Assembly (NCBI RefSeq): GCF_017815515.1
Contig: NZ_CP072611.1
Span: 3,100,001 to 3,164,000 of the forward strand
From: Aureimonas populi
GTDB taxonomy: Bacteria > Pseudomonadota > Alphaproteobacteria > Rhizobiales > Rhizobiaceae
Length of the DNA: 64,000 nt
Reading direction: 5' to 3'
Part shown: piece by piece, positions 52,167 to 64,000 of the stretch
How positions within the stretch are numbered: the first letter of the stretch is position 1
Layout: every line of letters begins with the position of its first letter
Position numbers and translations under genes: made by a program
The notes under the pieces: generated by a model
Told to the model about the DNA's origin: nothing
The model's input: the letters and a program-made list of their open reading frames with translations, nothing else
Database searches by the model: none

Positions 52167-52172
52167 ACTAGG
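52167..52172 (+). repeat. Left 6-bp target duplication of IS481 element
   Basis: ACTAGG, identical to the six bases at 53,175-53,180 on the other side of the element, and matching the NCTAGN target reported for IS481 of Bordetella. Confidence 0.85.
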
Positions 52173-53118
52173 TGTTTAGTCCCGGCATTTGATGGATTGG
52201 ATCGATGATGAATCGATCCGGCTCGGATGTCCACTGCTTGCAGATGAACTCGTAGGGCGTGAGACCCTTGAGCGTCTTCAATCTTCGCCCGAAGTTGTAG
52301 GCGTCGATGAAGTCGGCAAGATGCTTTTTCAGTTGCGCGTGATCGTCGTAGTGGAAGCGCTTGACGGTGGCGTCCTTGATGGTCCGGTTCATGCGTTCGA
52401 CCTGTCCGTTCGTCCAAGGATGCTTGAGCTTTGTGAGCCTGTGCTCGATGCCGTTCTCGTCGCAGACCCGATCGAAGATGTGGTGGAAAGCGTATTTGTG
52501 GCGGGCCTGATTGGTGAACTGGATGCCGTTGTCGATCAGCACTGTATGGATGGTGTAGGGAGCCGCTGCGATGAGATTGCGCAGGAACTGGGCTGCATTC
52601 ATCTTGCCGGCTTTGGCATAGAGCTCAGCGAAGGCGAACTTGGATGTGCGGTCAATCGCTACAAAGAGATAGAGCTTGCCCTCGGCCGTCTGCACCTCGG
52701 CAATGTCGATGTGGAAATAGCCGATCGGGTAACTCTTGAACTTCTTCTTCGGCTCCTTGTCGCCTTCGACATCGGGAAGCCTGCTGATCCCGTGACGGTG
52801 CAGGCAGCGGTGCAATGAAGAGCGCGTCAGGTGCGGGATCGTCGGCTGGAGCGCATACAGGCAGTCGTCAAGCGGCAGCAGCGTGTGCTTGCGGAAGGCG
52901 ACGATGATCGCCTCCTCATCAAGCGAGAGCACCGACGAATGCGGGTCTCTCGGCCCAGTGGGTAGGTCGGCTACTGAAGTTCGCTTCTTCCACTTGGCGA
53001 CAGTCTTCTGGTTGATCCCGTAGCGCTTGGCCAGAGCTCTCAAGCTCTCTTGACTATTTTGTATCGCTCGACGCACCGCCTCTGTCGTCGTGGCGCTCCC
53101 GTGCAAAATCTGGCCCAT
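52168..53118 (-). CDS. IS481-family transposase
   Basis: A DDE-type integrase-core transposase of about 316 residues from the ATG at 53,118 (MGQILHGSATTTEAVRRAIQ), with a 5-residue longer start at 53,133. The N-terminal helix-turn-helix reads LRALAKRYGINQKTVAKWKK, the DDE core has FHIDIAEVQT, VLIDNGIQFTN and NGQVERMNRTIK with the acids expected. The stop TAG falls in the target duplication: the last codon ACC spans the element edge and TAG is supplied by the target. Same strand as the copper ATPase but unrelated in function. Confidence 0.93.
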   Translation of the reverse strand: MGQILHGSATTTEAVRRAIQNSQESLRALAKRYGINQKTVAKWKKRTSVADLPTGPRDPHSSVLSLDEEAIIVAFRKHTLLPLDDCLYALQPTIPHLTRSSLHRCLHRHGISRLPDVEGDKEPKKKFKSYPIGYFHIDIAEVQTAEGKLYLFVAIDRTSKFAFAELYAKAGKMNAAQFLRNLIAAAPYTIHTVLIDNGIQFTNQARHKYAFHHIFDRVCDENGIEHRLTKLKHPWTNGQVERMNRTIKDATVKRFHYDDHAQLKKHLADFIDAYNFGRRLKTLKGLTPYEFICKQWTSEPDRFIIDPIHQMPGLNT

Positions 53119-53174
53119 AGCGCATCCCTCCATTCTGAAGAAAATAATGCACCATCAAAGCCCGGGATCAAACA
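52173..53174 (-). mobile_element. Complete IS481-family insertion sequence (1002 bp)
   Basis: Bounded by TG...CA ends with 23-bp imperfect terminal inverted repeats (TGTTTAGTCCCGGCATTTGA at the left; 19 of 23 match on the right) and the ACTAGG target duplication. Contains one complete transposase gene on the minus strand. Its intact structure suggests recent movement. It has landed at the end of an older, broken IS5-family element. Confidence 0.88.
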
Positions 53175-53192: not shown

Positions 53193-53445
53193 TCATTGTG
53201 AGTTTATAACGGCGGCGGTGAGGTAGATCATGGCCTTGAAGCTCCGATCGATTTTGCAAGCGCGCATGGCGATGCGCTTGAACTATTTGAATTTGCGGAA
53301 GAAATTTTCGATGAGGCGCCGCCATTTGTACATCTCCTTGTCGATTTCGAGCGGCGCTATGCGGTTCTTGCGCTGGGAAATGACGACCTTTGCCCCGCGC
53401 TGACTGAGTTCTTCGACGATCCAGTTGGCGTCAAATGCCTTGTCA
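53193..53445 (-). pseudogene. IS5-family (IS427 group) transposase remnant with a nonsense codon
   Basis: C-terminal third of an IS5-family transposase. Reading leftward it gives ADDKAFDANWIVEELSQRGA, then RIAPLEIDKEMYKWRRLIENFFRKFK, then a TAG stop at 53,283-53,285, then FKRIAMRACKIDRSFKAMIY and LTAAVINSQ with the normal stop at 53,193. A Glu codon is expected where the TAG stands. The N-terminal two thirds are gone; at about 53,441-53,450 the sequence passes into a trbI fragment on the other strand. It cannot be active. Confidence 0.85.
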
Positions 53446-53667
53446 TCGGCCAGTATGATGATGGCGTGACCTTCGGCCAGCGCCGGGGGCTGCTTGTCTG
53501 GAACCGCCTGATCCTGCCGGGCGGCCGTTCTATCGTTCTGGAGCGCCTGCCGGGCGCGGACACCAGCGGCTACGCCGGCCTTGAGGATGGCGTCGATTAT
53601 CATTGGTGGGATCTGATGAAGGCCGCAGCGCTGTCCACGCTGCTTGCAGCCGGCACGGAGCTGGCCG
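53441..53667 (+). pseudogene. Remnant of a Trb-type conjugal transfer protein TrbI
   Basis: An internal piece of TrbI (VirB10-like channel protein of a type IV secretion/conjugation system). Forward frame reading gives IGQYDDGVTFGQRRGLLVW, RLILPGGRSIVLERLPGADT, YAGLEDGVDYHWWDLMKAA and STLLAAGTELA, all typical of the TrbI C-terminal domain. Both ends are truncated: the left by the IS5 remnant and the right by a deletion that joins it to a DUF2274 fragment. No start codon or complete gene remains. Confidence 0.8.
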
Positions 53668-53754
53668 GTAAAGCTCATCGTGCCGATGCTGGAACGCTTC
53701 GTTGCCACGGATCGCGGTTTCGCCAAGGCGCGGCGAACTCCGTCAGTCGGCTAA
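53668..53754 (+). pseudogene. Remnant of the DUF2274 gene that usually follows trbI
   Basis: Frame-shifted relative to the TrbI piece, the sequence reads KLIVPMLERFVATDRGFAKA then RRTPSVG and a stop at 53,752-53,754. This is the C terminus of the small DUF2274 protein that follows trbI in integrative conjugative elements. The N-terminal part is missing, so an internal deletion fused the two genes. Confidence 0.65.
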
Positions 53755-56238: not shown

Positions 56239-57315
56239 TCAGGTGCGGATGAGCGGGAGCAGTTCGTCCTCGCACCACAGGCGGAAGCTGGTGGGCGTGG
56301 TGTTCTCGGGCGTTCGAGGCTCGGCGTTGTCGAGGCCCTCGTTCTTGGCCCGCGCGAGGTCCGTCTGGCCCCTGGCCATTCCCGGGGACGAACCGAAGCT
56401 CTCGAACCGGGCCTCGTATTCCTCGAAAGTGATCCGATCGAAGCGAACCGGCCTTTCGAGCACCTCGGTCATGATCTGCGCCATCTCGTTGAACGAGATG
56501 TCTTCCGGCCCGAGCACCGCGAGCTGATCCCGGCCGGTCCAGCTGGTATCGAGCAGCGAGCGGATCGCGCTGACGGCGATGTCCCGGGTCGCACAGGCCG
56601 GAACTCTCAGATCTCCGTCGATCGCGGAGAAGAAGACGCCGTCGTCCCTGATGGATTGCGCCTGTTCGGCGATGTTGTCGATGAAGGCGGGCATGGCCAG
56701 CGCCCGGAACGCAACGCCGGTGTCCGCGATCATATCGTCCATCGCCAGCGACGCCGTGACGAAACCGGCGTTTTCCGCCATCGGCGTGCCGCGACCGAGC
56801 CCGGTGACGCTGACGACGCGCTGCACGCCCTGACTGACGATCGCCTCGCTGGCGGGGCGGGAAAAATCCACATAGGCCGCCATCGGATTCTCGGCGGTGT
56901 CCTCCGGCGGGCATATCCAAAGAACCGTATCGGCTCCTTCGAAAGCGCGGTTCACCACGTCGGCCTCGCTGTGAGATCCCCGAACGACTTCGACGCGCTC
57001 GAGAATGTACGGGGGGAGCCGCCGGACCAGCAATTCGGGAGGAAGCGATGACTGGGAACGCGCGATGATCCGGACGTTGACGTCGCTGTCGAGAAGGTGC
57101 CGAACGACCCGATGGCCGATCTTCCCGGTGGGCGTGGTGACGACGATCGTGCGCCGGTCCGCCGTCGAGACGGCGTCTTGCGCCCTGGCGGCAAGGGTGC
57201 CCGCCCCGAGGGCGGACGCTCCCGCGCCAAGCGCGAGGCCGCCAATCATAAAGCGGCGACGATCGATGCCATATGGCCCTTGATGGGCCACGGAATCGGA
57301 TTCCTTCTTCGTCAT
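56239..57315 (-). CDS. Tat-exported NmrA/SDR-like NAD(P)-binding protein
   Basis: A 358-residue atypical short-chain-dehydrogenase-fold protein of the NmrA type, with a twin-arginine signal peptide (DRRRFMIGGLALGAGAS, cleavage near ARAQ). The nucleotide-binding strand reads RRTIVVTTPTGKIGHRVV, followed by VNVRIIARSQS and ADTVLWICPP. Export of a cofactor-binding fold via Tat is expected because it would fold with NAD(P) before export. The substrate is unknown. The start MTKKESDS at 57,315 has AGGGGTGT in front. A 45-bp element shared with the two-component promoter lies 86-130 bases upstream. Confidence 0.75.
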   Translation of the reverse strand: MTKKESDSVAHQGPYGIDRRRFMIGGLALGAGASALGAGTLAARAQDAVSTADRRTIVVTTPTGKIGHRVVRHLLDSDVNVRIIARSQSSLPPELLVRRLPPYILERVEVVRGSHSEADVVNRAFEGADTVLWICPPEDTAENPMAAYVDFSRPASEAIVSQGVQRVVSVTGLGRGTPMAENAGFVTASLAMDDMIADTGVAFRALAMPAFIDNIAEQAQSIRDDGVFFSAIDGDLRVPACATRDIAVSAIRSLLDTSWTGRDQLAVLGPEDISFNEMAQIMTEVLERPVRFDRITFEEYEARFESFGSSPGMARGQTDLARAKNEGLDNAEPRTPENTTPTSFRLWCEDELLPLIRT

Positions 57316-57400
57316 GCGACACCCCTGGACTGGATTGCTTTCATCGCCGCACGAGGATGGAGAAGCAGTGTCGCAGCCGTATGCTGACGGGCCGCTCAAA

Positions 57401-57445
57401 TGTATTCGACTGTCGCAAAATCGCCGTCCGGGACGCTCGATTACA
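57401..57445 (+). promoter_or_regulatory. 45-bp element, copy A (before the Tat NmrA-like gene)
   Basis: Begins TGTATTCGACTGTCGCAAAA and ends TCGATTACA; matches copy B (59,692-59,736, read on the minus strand) at 39 of 45 positions. TGTATTCGA and TCGATTACA at its two ends form an inverted repeat. It lies 86-130 bases upstream of the NmrA-like start and just past the sensor kinase stop. Candidate operator for the adjacent response regulator, or terminal repeat of a cassette. Confidence 0.7.
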
Positions 57446-57555
57446 AAGCGAACCCGGTAGGCTGCTGAAGGAATCGAACCTCAACTATAAGAAATGTATG
57501 ATGAGCGACCTCAAGTCGCTGACCGTAGCTTGGCGGACAGTGACTGGACGAATGC

Positions 57556-58923
57556 TCAACTGTGTACAGCCGGGAGGCTGACCACGAGACGTGCCCCGCC
57601 GGTGCAGGCATCTTCGGCCCTCACCGAGCCGCCATTGGCCTCGACTGCGACCTTTGCGATGGCGAGGCCGAGTCCCGAACCACCGGTGTCCCGGCTGCGC
57701 GACGCTTCCAGCCGCACGAAAGGTTCGAAGACCCGCTCGCGCTCATGGCCTGGAATGCCGGGCCCATTGTCCTCGACGATGATGAGGGCGACATCATTGG
57801 CGCTTTGAAGCGTAATGCGCGCCTCTTCCCCGTAGCGCATCGCATTCTCCGCGATGTTGCGCAGTGCTCTTTTCAGGCTGGTCCGCCGGGCTTTGACGTT
57901 GAGGTCGCCCTCCAGGGATATACTGATATCGCCGCCTGCCTCCTGCATTTCCTCGGCGAGCGTCCGCAGCATCCGGCCAAGGTTCACAACCGTGACCGGT
58001 TCGCCCGTATCGGCCCCGCGCGCCAGCGCCAGGGCGGATTCGACCAGCGTCTGCATTTCATCGAGACAGTTGTTCATGCGCTCGCGGGTCTCTTCGTCGT
58101 CGACCATCTCGAGCCGGAGCCGCATGGCGGTTATCGGCGAGCGAAGGTCGTGGCCGAGCGCCGCCAGCATGTTCGAACGTTCCGAAAGCAGTTTCGTCAG
58201 CCGTTGCGCCATCTCTTCGAATGTCGTGGTCAGCCGGCGTATTTCGTCCGGCCCGGTGCTGTCGAGCGGCTCGATCGCTGCCCCCCGGCCGAGACGTTCG
58301 GCATTTTCGGCAAGCCGTCGCATCGGACGTGAAACCCTGCCGACGAGAAGCCAGACCGTGGCGATCACCGCTGCCATCGTCAGGAGGATCGAGACGAAAG
58401 CCGGCCAGGCCCATTGCAGGGGCGGCCCGCCGGTGTCGACGCGCGCATTCAGCCAGGATCCGTTGCGCAGCTCCGTGGAAATGGCGAGGTGTGTCGGATC
58501 ACCGTCCTCGTCCCCGTCCGGACCCGGACGGGGCGACGATGCCACCTCGTTGTCGATCAGGGCCACACCGACGGAACGGTCGGGGACGCTCGCAAGCGCC
58601 GACTGGATGTGTCCGGACAGGTAGTCGAGCGCATCCGCGCCGTCGGCATCTGTGAGGGGCGCGCCGTCGACGCTCAGCCGGAAATCGATCGATTCCGCAG
58701 ACCGCAGGATCGAGGCGATCGCCCCGTCCGGTGCAGCGTCCACTGCACCGGCGACGGACGCGATCCGGCTCACGCCGTCCTTGGCCAAAGCCGCTAGGAT
58801 CGAACGCTGGCGTTCGTGGATGAACAGCGCGATGCTGACGCATTGCACCACCGTCAATGCCAGCATCAACAGCACGATGAACTGGCCGCGGATGGTGCGC
58901 GGCGCTGCCGACAGGATCTTCAC
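57556..58923 (-). CDS. Sensor histidine kinase (OmpR-partner class)
   Basis: A 455-residue membrane kinase. Helix one is about 15-36, the periplasmic sensor 37-170, helix two 171-194, HAMP after RPMRRLAENAERL. The phosphorylated His258 is in LGHDLRSPITAMRLRLEMV, N box NIAENAMRYG (Asn360), G boxes DNGPGIPG and GGSGLGLAIAK. The sensor has an acidic run (GPDGDEDGD, about 134-142) that could bind cations or cationic peptides, as PhoQ does. It overlaps the regulator gene by four bases. Confidence 0.92.
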   Translation of the reverse strand: MKILSAAPRTIRGQFIVLLMLALTVVQCVSIALFIHERQRSILAALAKDGVSRIASVAGAVDAAPDGAIASILRSAESIDFRLSVDGAPLTDADGADALDYLSGHIQSALASVPDRSVGVALIDNEVASSPRPGPDGDEDGDPTHLAISTELRNGSWLNARVDTGGPPLQWAWPAFVSILLTMAAVIATVWLLVGRVSRPMRRLAENAERLGRGAAIEPLDSTGPDEIRRLTTTFEEMAQRLTKLLSERSNMLAALGHDLRSPITAMRLRLEMVDDEETRERMNNCLDEMQTLVESALALARGADTGEPVTVVNLGRMLRTLAEEMQEAGGDISISLEGDLNVKARRTSLKRALRNIAENAMRYGEEARITLQSANDVALIIVEDNGPGIPGHERERVFEPFVRLEASRSRDTGGSGLGLAIAKVAVEANGGSVRAEDACTGGARLVVSLPAVHS

Positions 58924-59645
58924 GCGCTCTCCGTGACGTCGGACATGAAGCAGTATCCGCCGCCCCTGACCGTCGAGATGAGTTCGGGACTGGCTGCATC
59001 CCGCTCGATCTTGCGCCGGAGGCGGCTGACCTGATTGTCGATGGCCCGGTCGAATGGAGCCGCCTCGCGCCCGCTCGTCAGGTCGAGCAGGCGGTCGCGG
59101 GACAATATGATCCTGGGCCGCTCGAGGAACGCCACCAGAAGCTGATAGTCTCCCGTCGTGAGGACCGCTTCCTCACCACCGGCGTCGATCAGGATTCGCC
59201 GATCGACGTCGAGCGTCCAGCGGTCGAACAGCAGCTTCTTGCCGCCATACTGTCCGCCGAGGGAAACAGGCGCGCGCTCGGTTCGTCTCAGGATCGCCTT
59301 GATGCGCGCCAGCACCTCCCGGGGATTGAACGGCTTGGGCAGGTAGTCGTCGGCACCCACCTCGAGGCCGATGATCCTGTCCGTGTCCTCGCCGAGCGCC
59401 GTCAGCATCAGGACGGCGACGTCGCTCTCGACGCGCAGGCGCCGGCAGGCGGACAAGCCATCCTCGCCCGGCATCATGACATCGAGAACGACCAGATCGT
59501 AACGGCTCTCGGACATGGCCTTGTCCATGGCCCTGGCGCTGTCCACGGCGCTGGTCCGGAAGCCGTTCCGCTCGAGATAGCGCTTGAGCGCATCGCGGAT
59601 CTCGCGGTGATCGTCGACGATCAGGATGTTCGGTGCGGTGCTCAT
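58920..59645 (-). CDS. OmpR-family response regulator
   Basis: A 241-residue two-component regulator. The receiver holds DD at 11-12, phosphoacceptor Asp55 (VVLDVMMPGEDG), Thr82 and Lys104 (LPKPF). The C-terminal winged helix has QLLVAFLERPRIILSRDRLL and the wing end RLRRKIERDAASPELISTVR. The ATG at 59,645 starts a frame of the right length; a longer frame upstream is not coding. The kinase gene follows with a four-base overlap. Element copy B lies 47-91 bases upstream. Confidence 0.93.
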   Translation of the reverse strand: MSTAPNILIVDDHREIRDALKRYLERNGFRTSAVDSARAMDKAMSESRYDLVVLDVMMPGEDGLSACRRLRVESDVAVLMLTALGEDTDRIIGLEVGADDYLPKPFNPREVLARIKAILRRTERAPVSLGGQYGGKKLLFDRWTLDVDRRILIDAGGEEAVLTTGDYQLLVAFLERPRIILSRDRLLDLTSGREAAPFDRAIDNQVSRLRRKIERDAASPELISTVRGGGYCFMSDVTESA

Positions 59646-59691
59646 GGAGCAAACATTACCGCAAGGCCTGCGTCTGTCGAAGTCGTCTCGT

Positions 59692-59736
59692 TGTAACCCA
59701 CCGTCCCGCAAGGCGATTTTGCGACAGTCGATTACA
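59692..59736 (-). promoter_or_regulatory. 45-bp element, copy B (between regulator and membrane methyltransferase)
   Basis: On the minus strand begins TGTAATCGACTGTCGCAAAA and ends in GGGTTACA; 39 of 45 positions agree with copy A, in opposite orientation. Lies 47-91 bases before the response-regulator start and about 194 bases before the divergent methyltransferase-efflux operon, so it could control both. Confidence 0.7.
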
Positions 59737-59929
59737 CTTAAGCACTTTGCTGGCACACAGACACGACACTGCTCCCCCAGCTTGCGTCGTACGTCGCGGC
59801 AACACGCCGGCCAAGAGGCAACGCGTCGGTGTTCCCGCCGATCCGTTCGCTTGAAGAGCCGCCAACCGCGATCAACGAAAGGTGCTGCCGAGACCGCTCC
59901 AGTGGTGTCCCGGCACATAGCTGCTGGAG

Positions 59930-60568
59930 TTGTTATGCTGGATACGGTTTCGGGGGCAGCAGACCCTTGGACTAACCCAATCACGACGCAAGATCGCCAT
60001 CCGTATCGCATTGGCTCTCATGCTGCCGCTGCTTCTTGTCACGGAGGCGGCGGCCGAACCAGGCTCCTGGCAGCGCGACTGGATCGAGGCGACCGGCGTC
60101 CTTTTTATCGTGCTCGCAATTCTCGGCCGATCCTGGTGCACGCTCTACATCGGTGGGCGCAAGGTCGAGAGGCTGGTCAGAGCGGGACCATACTCGGTCA
60201 CGCGAAATCCGCTCTACCTGATCTCCCTAGCGGCTGCTGCCGGAGTCGGCATGCAAACGGGCAGCCTCGTCCTCACTCTCATAGTGGTGTTGGTCGCCTA
60301 TGCAATCTTCACACCGGTCATCCGCCGGGAAGAAGAGGTTCTGCGACATGTCCACGGTGCAGACTTCGAGGAGCATTGTCGAACCGTTCCCCGTCTCTTG
60401 CCACGGTTCGGCCTATGGAATGAAGAACGGGAGATAACGATAAACCCGTTCCTCTGGAGACGCACGGTGCTGGACAGCATGTGGTTCCTGCTTCTGGTGC
60501 CGCTTGTCCGGTCGCTCGGGACTGTGCGGGCCTGGGTGCCCGATCTTCCCGCCATCACCCTTCCTTAG
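59930..60568 (+). CDS. Integral-membrane methyltransferase (ICMT/PEMT-like)
   Basis: A protein of up to 212 residues with several membrane helices and the hallmark of isoprenylcysteine/phospholipid methyltransferases, RAGPYSVTRNPLYLISLAAA, followed by RREEEVLRHVHGADFEEHCR, the second conserved block. Relatives use SAM on lipids or small membrane molecules. The start is uncertain: the listed TTG at 59,930 is just after GGAG but with tight spacing; an ATG at 60,020 gives a shorter form. It leads an operon with the RND genes (gap 45 bases). Confidence 0.72.
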   Translation: MLCWIRFRGQQTLGLTQSRRKIAIRIALALMLPLLLVTEAAAEPGSWQRDWIEATGVLFIVLAILGRSWCTLYIGGRKVERLVRAGPYSVTRNPLYLISLAAAAGVGMQTGSLVLTLIVVLVAYAIFTPVIRREEEVLRHVHGADFEEHCRTVPRLLPRFGLWNEEREITINPFLWRRTVLDSMWFLLLVPLVRSLGTVRAWVPDLPAITLP

Positions 60569-60613
60569 TCTGCACACCGCAACGGGCGAAGAAAAGACGA
60601 CGTGAGGCACGCA

Positions 60614-61708
60614 ATGAGACTGCTCAGGATGCTTCTTGCCGTTGTGTTCGTGACGGGTATGCCGTTCGCGGGGCAGCATCTCGCTGCGTCCTTCTTCGCG
60701 GAGCCGGCCGACCAGGCAGGTGATGATCCGGACGACGAGGAAGCTACGGACGTGCAGACCGTTCAGGCCGAGGTCCGGCGCTTCTCGACGCGCGTCCGGG
60801 CTGTCGGATCAACCCGGGCCCACCGGGCGATCGAGCTGCGCCCGGAGGACGCCGGGCTCGTCACCCGCATCCATTTCGAGCCCGGAGAGCATGTCGAGGA
60901 GAGTGCGCTCCTCCTGGAACTCGACGCGAGAAGCCAGATCGCGGCATTGAACGCCGCGGAAGCGACGCTGACCGAAGCGCAGACGGCCTTCGACCGCCTT
61001 TCCCGATTGCATGCGAACAACGCCACATCCCGTGTCAGTCTCGATGAGGCTGAGGCGGCGCTGCTGCGCGCTGCGTCGGAACGCGATATCGCGGCCGCAA
61101 ACCTCGCCAATCGAAGCGTGACGGCGCCGTTCGCGGGGCGGGTCGGCCTTTCAGGGGTCACGGTGGGTGCGCGGATCGAGGCGAACGCGGTGATCGCGAC
61201 GCTCGACGATACATCCACCATACAGGTCGACTTCCACGTTCCCGAAAACCTCATGACGCAGATCGAGATCGGGCAGCAAGTTCATCTGACCTCGTCGGCC
61301 TGGCCGGACCGTACATTCGAGGGGAGACTGACGGCGATCGACGGCCGGGTGGATCACAGCACGCGTTCGCTGGCCGTCCGCGCCGAGATCGACAATTCCG
61401 ATGGTGTCCTCACCGGCGGGATGTTCGTCCGGATCGAGGTGCTTCTGGACGACCGGGAAAGTCCGGCCGTACCGGAATATGCTTTGACCGTCGAGGGCAT
61501 GGAGACCCTTCTGCATGTGCTGCGTGACGGCACGATCGAGCGCGTCACCGTCGAGGCGGGCGACACTGTCGGCGGCCATGTCGAAATCCTTCAGGGAATC
61601 GCTGTGGGCGAGGATGTGATCGTCACGAACTTTCACCGGGTCGAACCGGGCATGCCCGCGCAAAGGCTGGAGGCCGCGCGACGCCAAACACTCGGGGACC
61701 AGCCATGA
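60614..61708 (+). CDS. RND efflux periplasmic adaptor (membrane fusion protein)
   Basis: A 364-residue adaptor linking an RND pump to an outer-membrane channel. An N-terminal signal or anchor (LRMLLAVVFVTGMPFAGQHL) is followed by an unusual acidic stretch (DDPDDEEATD, about 37-46), a biotinyl-like hairpin domain (IHFEPGEHVEESALLLELD, SVTAPFAGRVG), a coiled-coil hairpin between them, and a beta-barrel domain. The ATG at 60,614 follows GAGG; a GTG at 60,602 is in frame. The stop overlaps the pump start as ATGA. Confidence 0.9.
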   Translation: MRLLRMLLAVVFVTGMPFAGQHLAASFFAEPADQAGDDPDDEEATDVQTVQAEVRRFSTRVRAVGSTRAHRAIELRPEDAGLVTRIHFEPGEHVEESALLLELDARSQIAALNAAEATLTEAQTAFDRLSRLHANNATSRVSLDEAEAALLRAASERDIAAANLANRSVTAPFAGRVGLSGVTVGARIEANAVIATLDDTSTIQVDFHVPENLMTQIEIGQQVHLTSSAWPDRTFEGRLTAIDGRVDHSTRSLAVRAEIDNSDGVLTGGMFVRIEVLLDDRESPAVPEYALTVEGMETLLHVLRDGTIERVTVEAGDTVGGHVEILQGIAVGEDVIVTNFHRVEPGMPAQRLEAARRQTLGDQP

Positions 61709-64000
61709 CGCTCCCCGAGCTTTCGCTCAAGCGCCCTGTTTTCATCACGGTCCTCAACCTGCTCATCGTCCTGATCGGCGTCGTCGCGCTCACGCGCCTG
61801 CCGGTACGGGAGCTTCCCCAGATAATTTCCGCCGAGGTCACGGTCACCGTCGCCTATACCGGCGCTTCGCCCGAGGTGATCGACGCCCAGATATCCTCGG
61901 TCGTCGAGGGCGCGCTGGCGGGCATAACCGGCCTGCGCTCGATGATGTCCGAGACGGAACGAGGCAGCACGCGGACCGTGCTGACCTTCGATCCGGGTAT
62001 CGATATCGATTTCGCGGCGAACGACGTCCGCTCGGCCATCGACACCATCGTCGCGGAATTGCCCGATGACGCCGATCCCCCGGTTGTCGAGAAGAACAAC
62101 AGCCAGGCCGAGCCCGTGCTTCGCTTAAGCCTGTCGTCGACGTCCATGACCCCGATGGAGCTGACGGACTGGGCCTCGCGCAACCTCACGGAGAGGCTTT
62201 CGCGCCTGCCCGGCGTGGCGCGCGCGTCGATCTTCGGCGCACGCGATCCCGCGATGCGCATCTGGCTGGATACGAGCGCCATGGCCGAGCATTCGGTTAC
62301 GGCACAGGATGTCATCTCCGCGCTGGGGTCATGGAATCTCGAACTGCCCACGGGCGACATCGAGACGGGCGCCCGCCAGATCCAGCTTCTGGCCCGAACC
62401 CGTCTCGGCACGCCCGAGGAATTCAGCGAGATCGTCGTGCGGGATCAGGGCGCGCGCCCGTTCCTGCTCGGCGACGTGGCACGCGTGGAAGTCGCGCCGG
62501 AGGCGACCGAGAGCAATTTCCGCACGAACGGCGTTTCGGGCCTCGGGATCGGCATACAGGCGCAGGCTCAGGCGAACACGGTTCTCATCTCCGAAGCGGT
62601 CCGCGCCGAGGTGAACCGCATCGTCCCGAACCTGCCCGACGGCATGACTCTCGAAATCACCTCCGACGAGGCGGTCTTCATCGAAAGCACGATCGCGGAG
62701 GTCCTGCGGGTTTTCGTGGAAGCCATCGTGCTCGTCATGGTCGTGATCTTCCTCTTCCTCGGTTCGGTGCGGCTGTCGCTCGTCCCGGTGGTGACGATCC
62801 CCATTTCGCTGCTCGGCGCCGCCATCAGCATGCTCATCCTCGGCTTCTCGATCAACATCCTGACCCTGTTCGCGCTCATTCTCGCCATCGGGATCGTGGT
62901 CGACGACGCGATCATCGTGCTGGAGAACATCCAGCGGCACAAACGCGAGGGTGTCACCACGATCGAGGCCGTCCGGCGCGGCACGAACCAGGTGAACTTC
63001 GCGGTCATCGCGATCACGGCCGTGCTCGCCGCCGTGTTCCTGCCGGTCAGCTTCATGGAAGGCGAGATCGGCCAGTTGTTCGCGGAGTTCGGGATCGTTC
63101 TCACCGTCGCGGTTCTGGTGTCCGGCTTCGTTGCGCTGACCCTGTCGCCGGTGCTTGCATCCCTGGTCATGCGCGACGACGAGCGCGCCAATCTTCTCAC
63201 CCGGACGAGCGAACGGGTGCTCGGCGCGCTGGAGCGGACCTATCGCGCAATCCTGTCGCGCCTTCTCCATGCGCCCGTGGCCCTGCTCGCACTGACCGGA
63301 TTCGTCATGGGGATGGCCTGGGTCGTCTACGGCCAGCTTCCGCAGCAGCTGATCCCGAACGAAGACCGCGGCCAGTTCCGCATCTATCTCGCCGCGCCGC
63401 AGGGCACCAGTCTCGAACGAACGGATGTCATCACCGCGCAGGTCGAGGCCATTCTCGACCCCCTGCGGCGGACCCGGTCGCCGGAAGGGGTCATCGAAAG
63501 CGTGTCGACCATCGTCGGTCATACCGGCGACATCCGCCGCGCCCAGATCGAGGTGAACCTCGTGCCGTGGAACGAGCGCAGCGTCACCGTCGAGGACGTT
63601 CTCGCCGAGCTTGGCCCGCAGCTCGACGCGGTCACCGACGCCATGCTCATGACGCGCGTGACCGGCGGCCTGGGGGGCGGTGCCGAGGACGGCTTGCAGT
63701 GGATGCTCGGCGGGCCTGACGTGGAAACGGCCGCGGAGTGGGCGGAAGAGCTGGCCGAGCTCCTGGAGGAGACGGGCAGGTTCGAGGAGGTGGAGATCGA
63801 CTATGCCGTGAACCAGCCGGCGGCGATGATCACCATCGATCGGGCGCGCGCCCAGGATCTCGACGTGGATGCGCATGCCGTCACGCAGACGCTGCAAGTG
63901 CTTTTCGCCTCCCACAGTGTCGGCGAATATGCCAGGGACGGACGCCAGTATCCGGTCATTCTCCAGGCCGCTGCCGGGGATCGCGCCTCGCTTGCGGCGC
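61705..64000 (+). CDS. RND efflux inner-membrane pump (3' end beyond window)
   Basis: The first 765 residues of an AcrB/MdtB-like proton-driven exporter of about 1030 residues. The start MTLPELSLKRPVFITVLNLL is the usual first membrane helix. The proton-relay Asp pair is in IGIVVDDAIIVLENIQRHK, and the porter-loop pattern (SRLPGVARASIFGARD) is typical of hydrophobe/amphiphile pumps. The cut comes in the second porter half. No outer-membrane factor gene is seen in the window; it may follow to the right or be shared. Confidence 0.93.
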   Translation, partial: MTLPELSLKRPVFITVLNLLIVLIGVVALTRLPVRELPQIISAEVTVTVAYTGASPEVIDAQISSVVEGALAGITGLRSMMSETERGSTRTVLTFDPGIDIDFAANDVRSAIDTIVAELPDDADPPVVEKNNSQAEPVLRLSLSSTSMTPMELTDWASRNLTERLSRLPGVARASIFGARDPAMRIWLDTSAMAEHSVTAQDVISALGSWNLELPTGDIETGARQIQLLARTRLGTPEEFSEIVVRDQGARPFLLGDVARVEVAPEATESNFRTNGVSGLGIGIQAQAQANTVLISEAVRAEVNRIVPNLPDGMTLEITSDEAVFIESTIAEVLRVFVEAIVLVMVVIFLFLGSVRLSLVPVVTIPISLLGAAISMLILGFSINILTLFALILAIGIVVDDAIIVLENIQRHKREGVTTIEAVRRGTNQVNFAVIAITAVLAAVFLPVSFMEGEIGQLFAEFGIVLTVAVLVSGFVALTLSPVLASLVMRDDERANLLTRTSERVLGALERTYRAILSRLLHAPVALLALTGFVMGMAWVVYGQLPQQLIPNEDRGQFRIYLAAPQGTSLERTDVITAQVEAILDPLRRTRSPEGVIESVSTIVGHTGDIRRAQIEVNLVPWNERSVTVEDVLAELGPQLDAVTDAMLMTRVTGGLGGGAEDGLQWMLGGPDVETAAEWAEELAELLEETGRFEEVEIDYAVNQPAAMITIDRARAQDLDVDAHAVTQTLQVLFASHSVGEYARDGRQYPVILQAAAGDRASLAA

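Follow-up and report, generated by a model that had tools for sequence, protein, structure and literature searches.

The twin elements and their neighborhood

Two 45-bp elements, which face each other across a response regulator and its sensor kinase in Aureimonas populi, raise the question of whether they are operators of that regulator or the terminal inverted repeats of a regulatory cassette. They lie toward the end of the 64,000-nucleotide stretch analyzed here (hereinafter the window), at 57,401–57,445 on the plus strand (op1) and at 59,692–59,736 on the minus strand (op2). Based on their sequence and that of homologous loci, we predict that both are operators of the adjacent OmpR-family regulator and that op1 is a duplicate which was copied together with its outward promoter, a reading to which we assign a probability of about 0.87.

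The regulator (58,920–59,645, minus strand, 241 aa), recognized with Pfam and NCBIfam models, combines a Response_reg domain (103.2 bits) with a Trans_reg_C domain (70.3 bits), as in OmpR/PhoB-type response regulators, and its best match outside its own genome is 67% identical. The adjoining sensor histidine kinase (57,556–58,923, minus strand, 455 aa) displays matches to the HAMP, HisKA and HATPase_c domains. The same strand, downstream of op1, codes for an NmrA-like/NAD(P)H-binding protein (56,239–57,315), with the result that op1 precedes the NmrA-like gene and op2 is located between divergent genes. Outward of op2, the plus strand codes for a PEMT/ICMT-type methyltransferase (59,930–60,568, start codon uncertain), a membrane fusion protein of the HlyD/CusB type (60,602–61,708) and a 1,027-aa RND efflux transporter of the AcrB/AcrD/AcrF family (61,705–64,000), which leaves the window and ends at the equivalent of position 64,788. 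The placement proposed in an earlier note on this DNA was thereby confirmed: op1 lies between the kinase stop at 57,556 and the NmrA-like gene, and op2 between the regulator start at 59,645 and the methyltransferase gene. Near its start, the NmrA-like protein has an RRRFM sequence that by eye resembles a Tat export signal, and the methyltransferase has two further homologues in the genome, at C1:866660–867208 (55% identical) and C1:1602781–1603293 (42%). About 4 kb from op1 are an integrase-core (rve) protein (52,168–53,133) and an ORF that by eye is transposase fragment-like and is free of Pfam matches (53,283–53,726); nothing ties either of these ORFs to the 45-mers.

The match described in the earlier note was reproduced: the two 45-mers are identical at 39 of 45 positions and share an identical 20-base core. 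When the genome-wide search for copies was carried out, the core was found at exactly two places in the 3.82-Mb genome, namely op1 and op2; its sole other near-match, at C1:2,686,204, has 3 mismatches. Within the 64-kb window, no 45-mer on either strand, op2 excepted, agrees with op1 at 27 or more positions, and op2 read on its other strand agrees with op1 at 27 of 45. An exact match to a 15-base part of the core was found in none of the 20 same-genus genomes surveyed.

Anatomy of the 45-bp array

Each element can be read as two OmpR-type boxes that oppose each other, with the half-sites within a box being 10 bp apart. The layout common to these elements and their counterparts elsewhere, TGTNNC-N4-NGTNNC-N13-GNNACN-N4-GNNACA, is palindromic and 45 bp long, with 14 fixed letters, 12 of which are found in op1 and 13 in op2. 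In op1 the strong box, TGTATT-CGAC-TGTCGC, is on the NmrA side (57,401–57,416, plus strand), and the weak opposed box, TGTAAT-CGAG-CGTCCC (57,430–57,445, minus strand), keeps the frame of the conserved right arm of relatives. The strong box of op2, TGTAAT-CGAC-TGTCGC, is on the side of the efflux operon (59,721–59,736, minus strand) and its weak opposed box, TGTAAC-CCAC-CGTCCC, on that of the regulator (59,692–59,707, plus strand). A tandem of GNNACA half-sites with a 10-bp step is matched by relatives in both spacing and letters. The strong boxes of the window depart from it in the outer half-site, whose first letter is A where G is expected, and the departures of the weak boxes are greater. 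Both op1 and op2 have T rather than C at pattern position 6.

The two elements have the best pattern scores within the 64 kb, and op2 alone reaches at least 13 of 14 letters in the whole genome. The 12 letters of op1 are equaled at four other places in the genome and a control pattern also gives four, so the case for op1 is built on its likeness to op2 and on its place, not on the pattern. These four additional places being the control count, no wider regulon was found in this genome. The strong box, formulated as TGTAWYN4TGTCGCAA, occurs with no mismatch in the genome at op1 and op2 only, and a search with this one box at 2 mismatches returned 14 matches as compared to 2 and 3 for controls. 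The genomes G129, G042 and G086 do contain the 15-base part of the core; with no more than 10 of 14 pattern letters at the corresponding loci (L004, L006 and L007), these occurrences were attributed to chance.

A 43-bp stretch at C1:3,164,830–3,164,872 (L161:4330–4372), some 40 bp after the end of the RND gene and 830 bp outside the window, is possibly a third copy that has decayed; it seems to be located between convergent genes. It is one of the 14 one-box matches just mentioned and reads TGTAAT-CGAG-TGTCTC, with a TGTAAT in opposition. Local alignment to op2 gives a borderline score of 47, as against 43 for the best of 300 shuffles, and no likeness to op1 is seen (29 against 38).

The array upstream of regulator homologues

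The look at orthologous loci that had been proposed in the earlier note revealed the 45-bp four-half-site layout before the homologous regulator genes of other genomes, spanning Alpha-, Beta- and Gammaproteobacteria. Since the pattern was derived by eye from the closest homologues, which also belong to the set used for the subsequent count, these homologues are not independent of it. This set consists of 103 distinct regions, each taking in up to 250 bp of upstream sequence (109 before the removal of near-duplicates, from 80 + 29 loci), and 28 of them have the array at 13 or more of 14 letters; it is found upstream of 20 of the 36 regulator homologues that are at least 55% identical, and in none of five mononucleotide shuffles of each region. 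The geometry is strict: an array length of 45 bp yields 28 regions, as opposed to five for 46 bp, one for 47 bp and zero or one for the other lengths from 36 to 57 bp, and a half-site step of 10 yields 28 regions, with every other step from 7 to 14 yielding none. As for the position relative to the gene, op2 ends 46 bp before the regulator start codon, and the array ends 42–57 bp before it in 20 of the 28 (70–158 bp in the others).

We mapped the presence of the array as a label on a FastTree phylogeny of 104 regulators, where it requires 13 label changes against a mean of 25.5 for shuffled labels, with none of 500 shuffles being as low. It is present in 14 of the 17 members of the supported clade that contains the window's regulator (the window included) and in 8 of the 20 members of the sister clade. 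The members of the window's clade that are devoid of an array at 13 or more letters are L102, L017 and L116, the first of which by eye possesses a similar array that is one base longer.

Fifteen whole genomes, 14 of them chosen for carrying the regulator, were searched for exact matches to the pattern, which yielded 11 matches in nine genomes and none for the control. Nine of the 11 are at regulator promoters, eight of these being known beforehand; of the three new matches, one immediately precedes another regulator homologue of G202 (G202:C5), the second in that genome. The other two, G061:C8:22271–22315 and G164:C1:1499359–1499403, are away from the listed regulator homologues and are possibly further targets or chance matches. 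What this search adds is the rarity of exact matches elsewhere.

In all eight relatives scanned (chosen by eye among the loci with arrays), the divergent neighbor of the regulator codes for an EF-hand protein, and it is in the place of this gene that the Aureimonas populi window has the methyltransferase–RND efflux operon. The homologous system at L167 is framed by twin sites as in the window: its second array (13 of 14 letters) comes after the kinase, past a small gene, and precedes a same-strand gene of 337 aa. Among the Rhizobium/Ensifer loci L058, L066 and L055, arrays of 12 or 13 letters are seen about 1.25–1.4 kb before the regulator; L058 and L066 have another array just after the kinase, and the gene beyond the upstream arrays of L066 codes for thioredoxin-like domains. 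In the betaproteobacterial loci L035, L037, L038 and L039, the kinase is followed by weak matches to the fusion protein (22–25% identity). Two further associations were rejected, namely those of the array with the methyltransferase gene, whose homologues (L142–L160) reach at most 11 of 14 letters, and with the NmrA-like gene, whose homologues (L010–L012) have the same upper bound. Since homologues of both genes are thus devoid of the array, the targets seem to be particular to this lineage.

Promoter geometry and the direction of control

On the regulator side, nine TATAAT-like hexamers (at least 5 of 6 letters) were found at positions 28–36 past the operator edge in 29 regions, all at +31 to +34, as against a mean of 0.9 and a maximum of five in 200 shuffles; at least four of the nine are from betaproteobacteria that by eye are closely related. 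Such a -10 is absent at these positions in the remaining 20 regions, including that of the window, where the candidate -10 of the regulator gene is the weak GGTAAT (4 of 6 letters; 59,655–59,660, minus strand), at +32 from the operator edge. A sigma-70 consensus scan returned no promoter.

On the outward side, 17 of 27 relatives carry GNNACA at +27/+28, and 12 of 27 carry the narrower GNGACA at outward positions 26–29, as compared to a mean of 0.12 and a maximum of two in 500 shuffles. The window has GCGACA at outward +27 of op1 (57,369–57,374, minus strand), which matches, and ACGACA at outward +27 of op2 (59,763–59,768, plus strand), which does so save for its first letter. This suggests that the +27 element is either a fifth half-site or a -35-like element, and further suggests that it links the NmrA and efflux promoters of the window to the EF-hand promoters of the relatives. 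CATCG or TATCG words at outward +53–55 are found in 14 of 27 relatives and are by eye absent in the window, for which no outward -10 could be fixed. The GACACT outward of both copies was dropped as a -10 as relatives show GNNACA at the same place.

These distances bear on whether the bound regulator would activate or repress. Because, in those relatives with a recognizable -10, the box edge lies 31–34 bp before it, we infer activation from boxes placed just upstream of the -35: the regulator would bind as an activator and the flanking genes would respond. Repression, whereby the bound regulator would block both its own and the flanking promoters, might be argued from the outward half-sites of op1 and op2, which run into the -10-like words TACATT and TACACT. 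However, we set these outer words aside as -10 elements given the recognizable -10 of relatives, whose distance from the operator edge leaves space for the polymerase beside the boxes, and we regard repression as unlikely.

Probable duplication of the operator–promoter segment

When each is read toward its outward gene, op1 and op2 have the same orientation and their likeness continues past the edges of the 45-mers as a gapped local alignment of about 130 columns, which scores 93 against a best of 39 from 300 mononucleotide shuffles. It reaches outward into the NmrA and efflux promoters, and inward it stops within a few bases. Comparison of op2 with the sites of 28 relatives shows 18–27 of 45 letters to be shared, and these 28 sites compared pairwise share a median of 25, with a 95th percentile of 31. 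As op1 and op2 share 39 letters, op2 and the relatives 18–27, and as the likeness runs outward, the operator–promoter segment has probably been duplicated and copied in inverted orientation. We take op1 to be the duplicate, with op2 sitting in the place seen in relatives.

One could instead suppose that the two elements arose with no segment duplication, by independent convergence on one operator motif, which both of them do fit; moreover, one of the 378 pairs of relatives' sites reaches 39 or more shared letters (42, between the near relatives L128 and L018). Yet the agreement of the two copies at a level well beyond the median of relatives includes the free spacer and is accompanied by the outward extension of the likeness, making convergence improbable.

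It might also be asked if the elements serve as operators for some other DNA-binding protein, encoded away from this locus, to which the proximity of this two-component system would be incidental. The binding of the adjacent regulator is a prediction, and 75 of the 103 homologues have no array at 13 or more letters within 250 bp; against this, the array clusters with the clade of this regulator, its half-sites are of the type used by OmpR proteins, and the exact matches across genomes concentrate at regulator promoters in the proportion given above. Further, the own genome has just one protein matching the regulator at E ≤ 1e-60 among the seven scored of 42 candidates. Hence, we consider a foreign binding protein very improbable, and the operator reading favored by the earlier note gains support from both the array upstream of regulator homologues and its rarity in the genome.

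The other reading entertained in the earlier note, in which the elements would be terminal inverted repeats and the 2.3 kb that they frame a mobile regulatory cassette, is hardly credible. In its favor are the inverted orientation, the equal length, the placement around exactly two genes and the absence of the core from all 20 same-genus genomes. Against it, the likeness runs past the outer edges instead of ending sharply, no target duplication is visible there (TCAAA on the left and CTTAA on the right, in agreement with that note), inspection of the ORF list by eye showed no transposase between the copies, the genome contains no exact core besides these two, and most array-bearing relatives have one array at the regulator promoter rather than a pair at cassette ends. 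The same absence from the genus does mean that the locus may have been acquired.

Comparison with known systems

The best-scoring NCBIfam models for the window's kinase and regulator are those of EnvZ and OmpR. Nevertheless, the regulator attains 265.2 bits with the OmpR equivalog NF007005, below its curated cut-off of 331, and by this cut-off is not OmpR; the kinase likewise attains 188.5 bits with the EnvZ equivalog NF007004, whose curated cut-off is 415. The OmpR box motif GTTACAnnnnGTTACA, as quoted in PMC7315122, agrees with the GNNACA-N4-GNNACA half-site type and its 10-bp step. The difference from EnvZ/OmpR lies in the two boxes being opposed here at a fixed 45 bp, an array found in none of the 27 regulators of a clade with OmpR-like recognition helices by eye. 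The RstA box TACATNTNGTTACA likewise has TACA-type half-sites in tandem with a 10-bp step, to which a dimer of the OmpR family binds (PMC4117788); the half-site unit of the pattern resembles it, RstA having a single box where the window has two opposed ones. Inverted symmetry is shared with HP1043, which belongs to the OmpR family and binds inverted repeats, although according to PMC3960148 the half-sites there are apparently inverted within one dimer site. In contrast, each predicted dimer site in the window is a direct repeat and it is the two sites that are mutually inverted.

The EF-hand-associated OmpR-like systems (L013 of Xanthobacter, L070 of Roseovarius, L016 and others) have the same 45-bp array upstream of the regulator, with the kinase adjacent to it. 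They differ in that the window's divergent gene belongs to the methyltransferase–efflux operon and in that it has a second array before the NmrA-like gene. No description of an opposed double box was found in the open-access literature searched by words. The composite design of the predicted operators is shared with relatives.

A proposed mechanism

We propose that each 45-bp composite would present two boxes opposed across 13 bp, with one regulator dimer occupying each box. As the two boxes face each other, one array could serve promoters on both sides. In the case of op2, the regulator's own divergent operator, this would entail autoregulation along with control of the methyltransferase–RND efflux operon, and op1 would put the NmrA-like gene under the same control. 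More tentatively, the face-to-face dimers, held in a fixed phase by half-sites at positions 1, 11, 30 and 40, could form a bridging complex that drives both divergent promoters, with the array being copied along with the outward promoter and recruiting new targets as an operator class of its own; we see this as a conjecture with clearly less than even odds. The targets recruited in this way would be the EF-hand protein, the RND efflux system and the NmrA-like redox protein.

Significance for the OmpR family

Regulators of the OmpR family are widespread, and many of them have neither a known signal nor known target genes. The clade of the window's regulator has no named member in the searches of this analysis; Caulobacter UzcR is a possible relative. 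The strict and searchable 45-bp signature ties this clade to its likely targets by sequence alone. At the Aureimonas populi locus an operator–promoter unit has apparently been copied, bringing another gene under control, and if two dimers do bridge the array it would represent a distinct way for the OmpR family to run divergent promoters.
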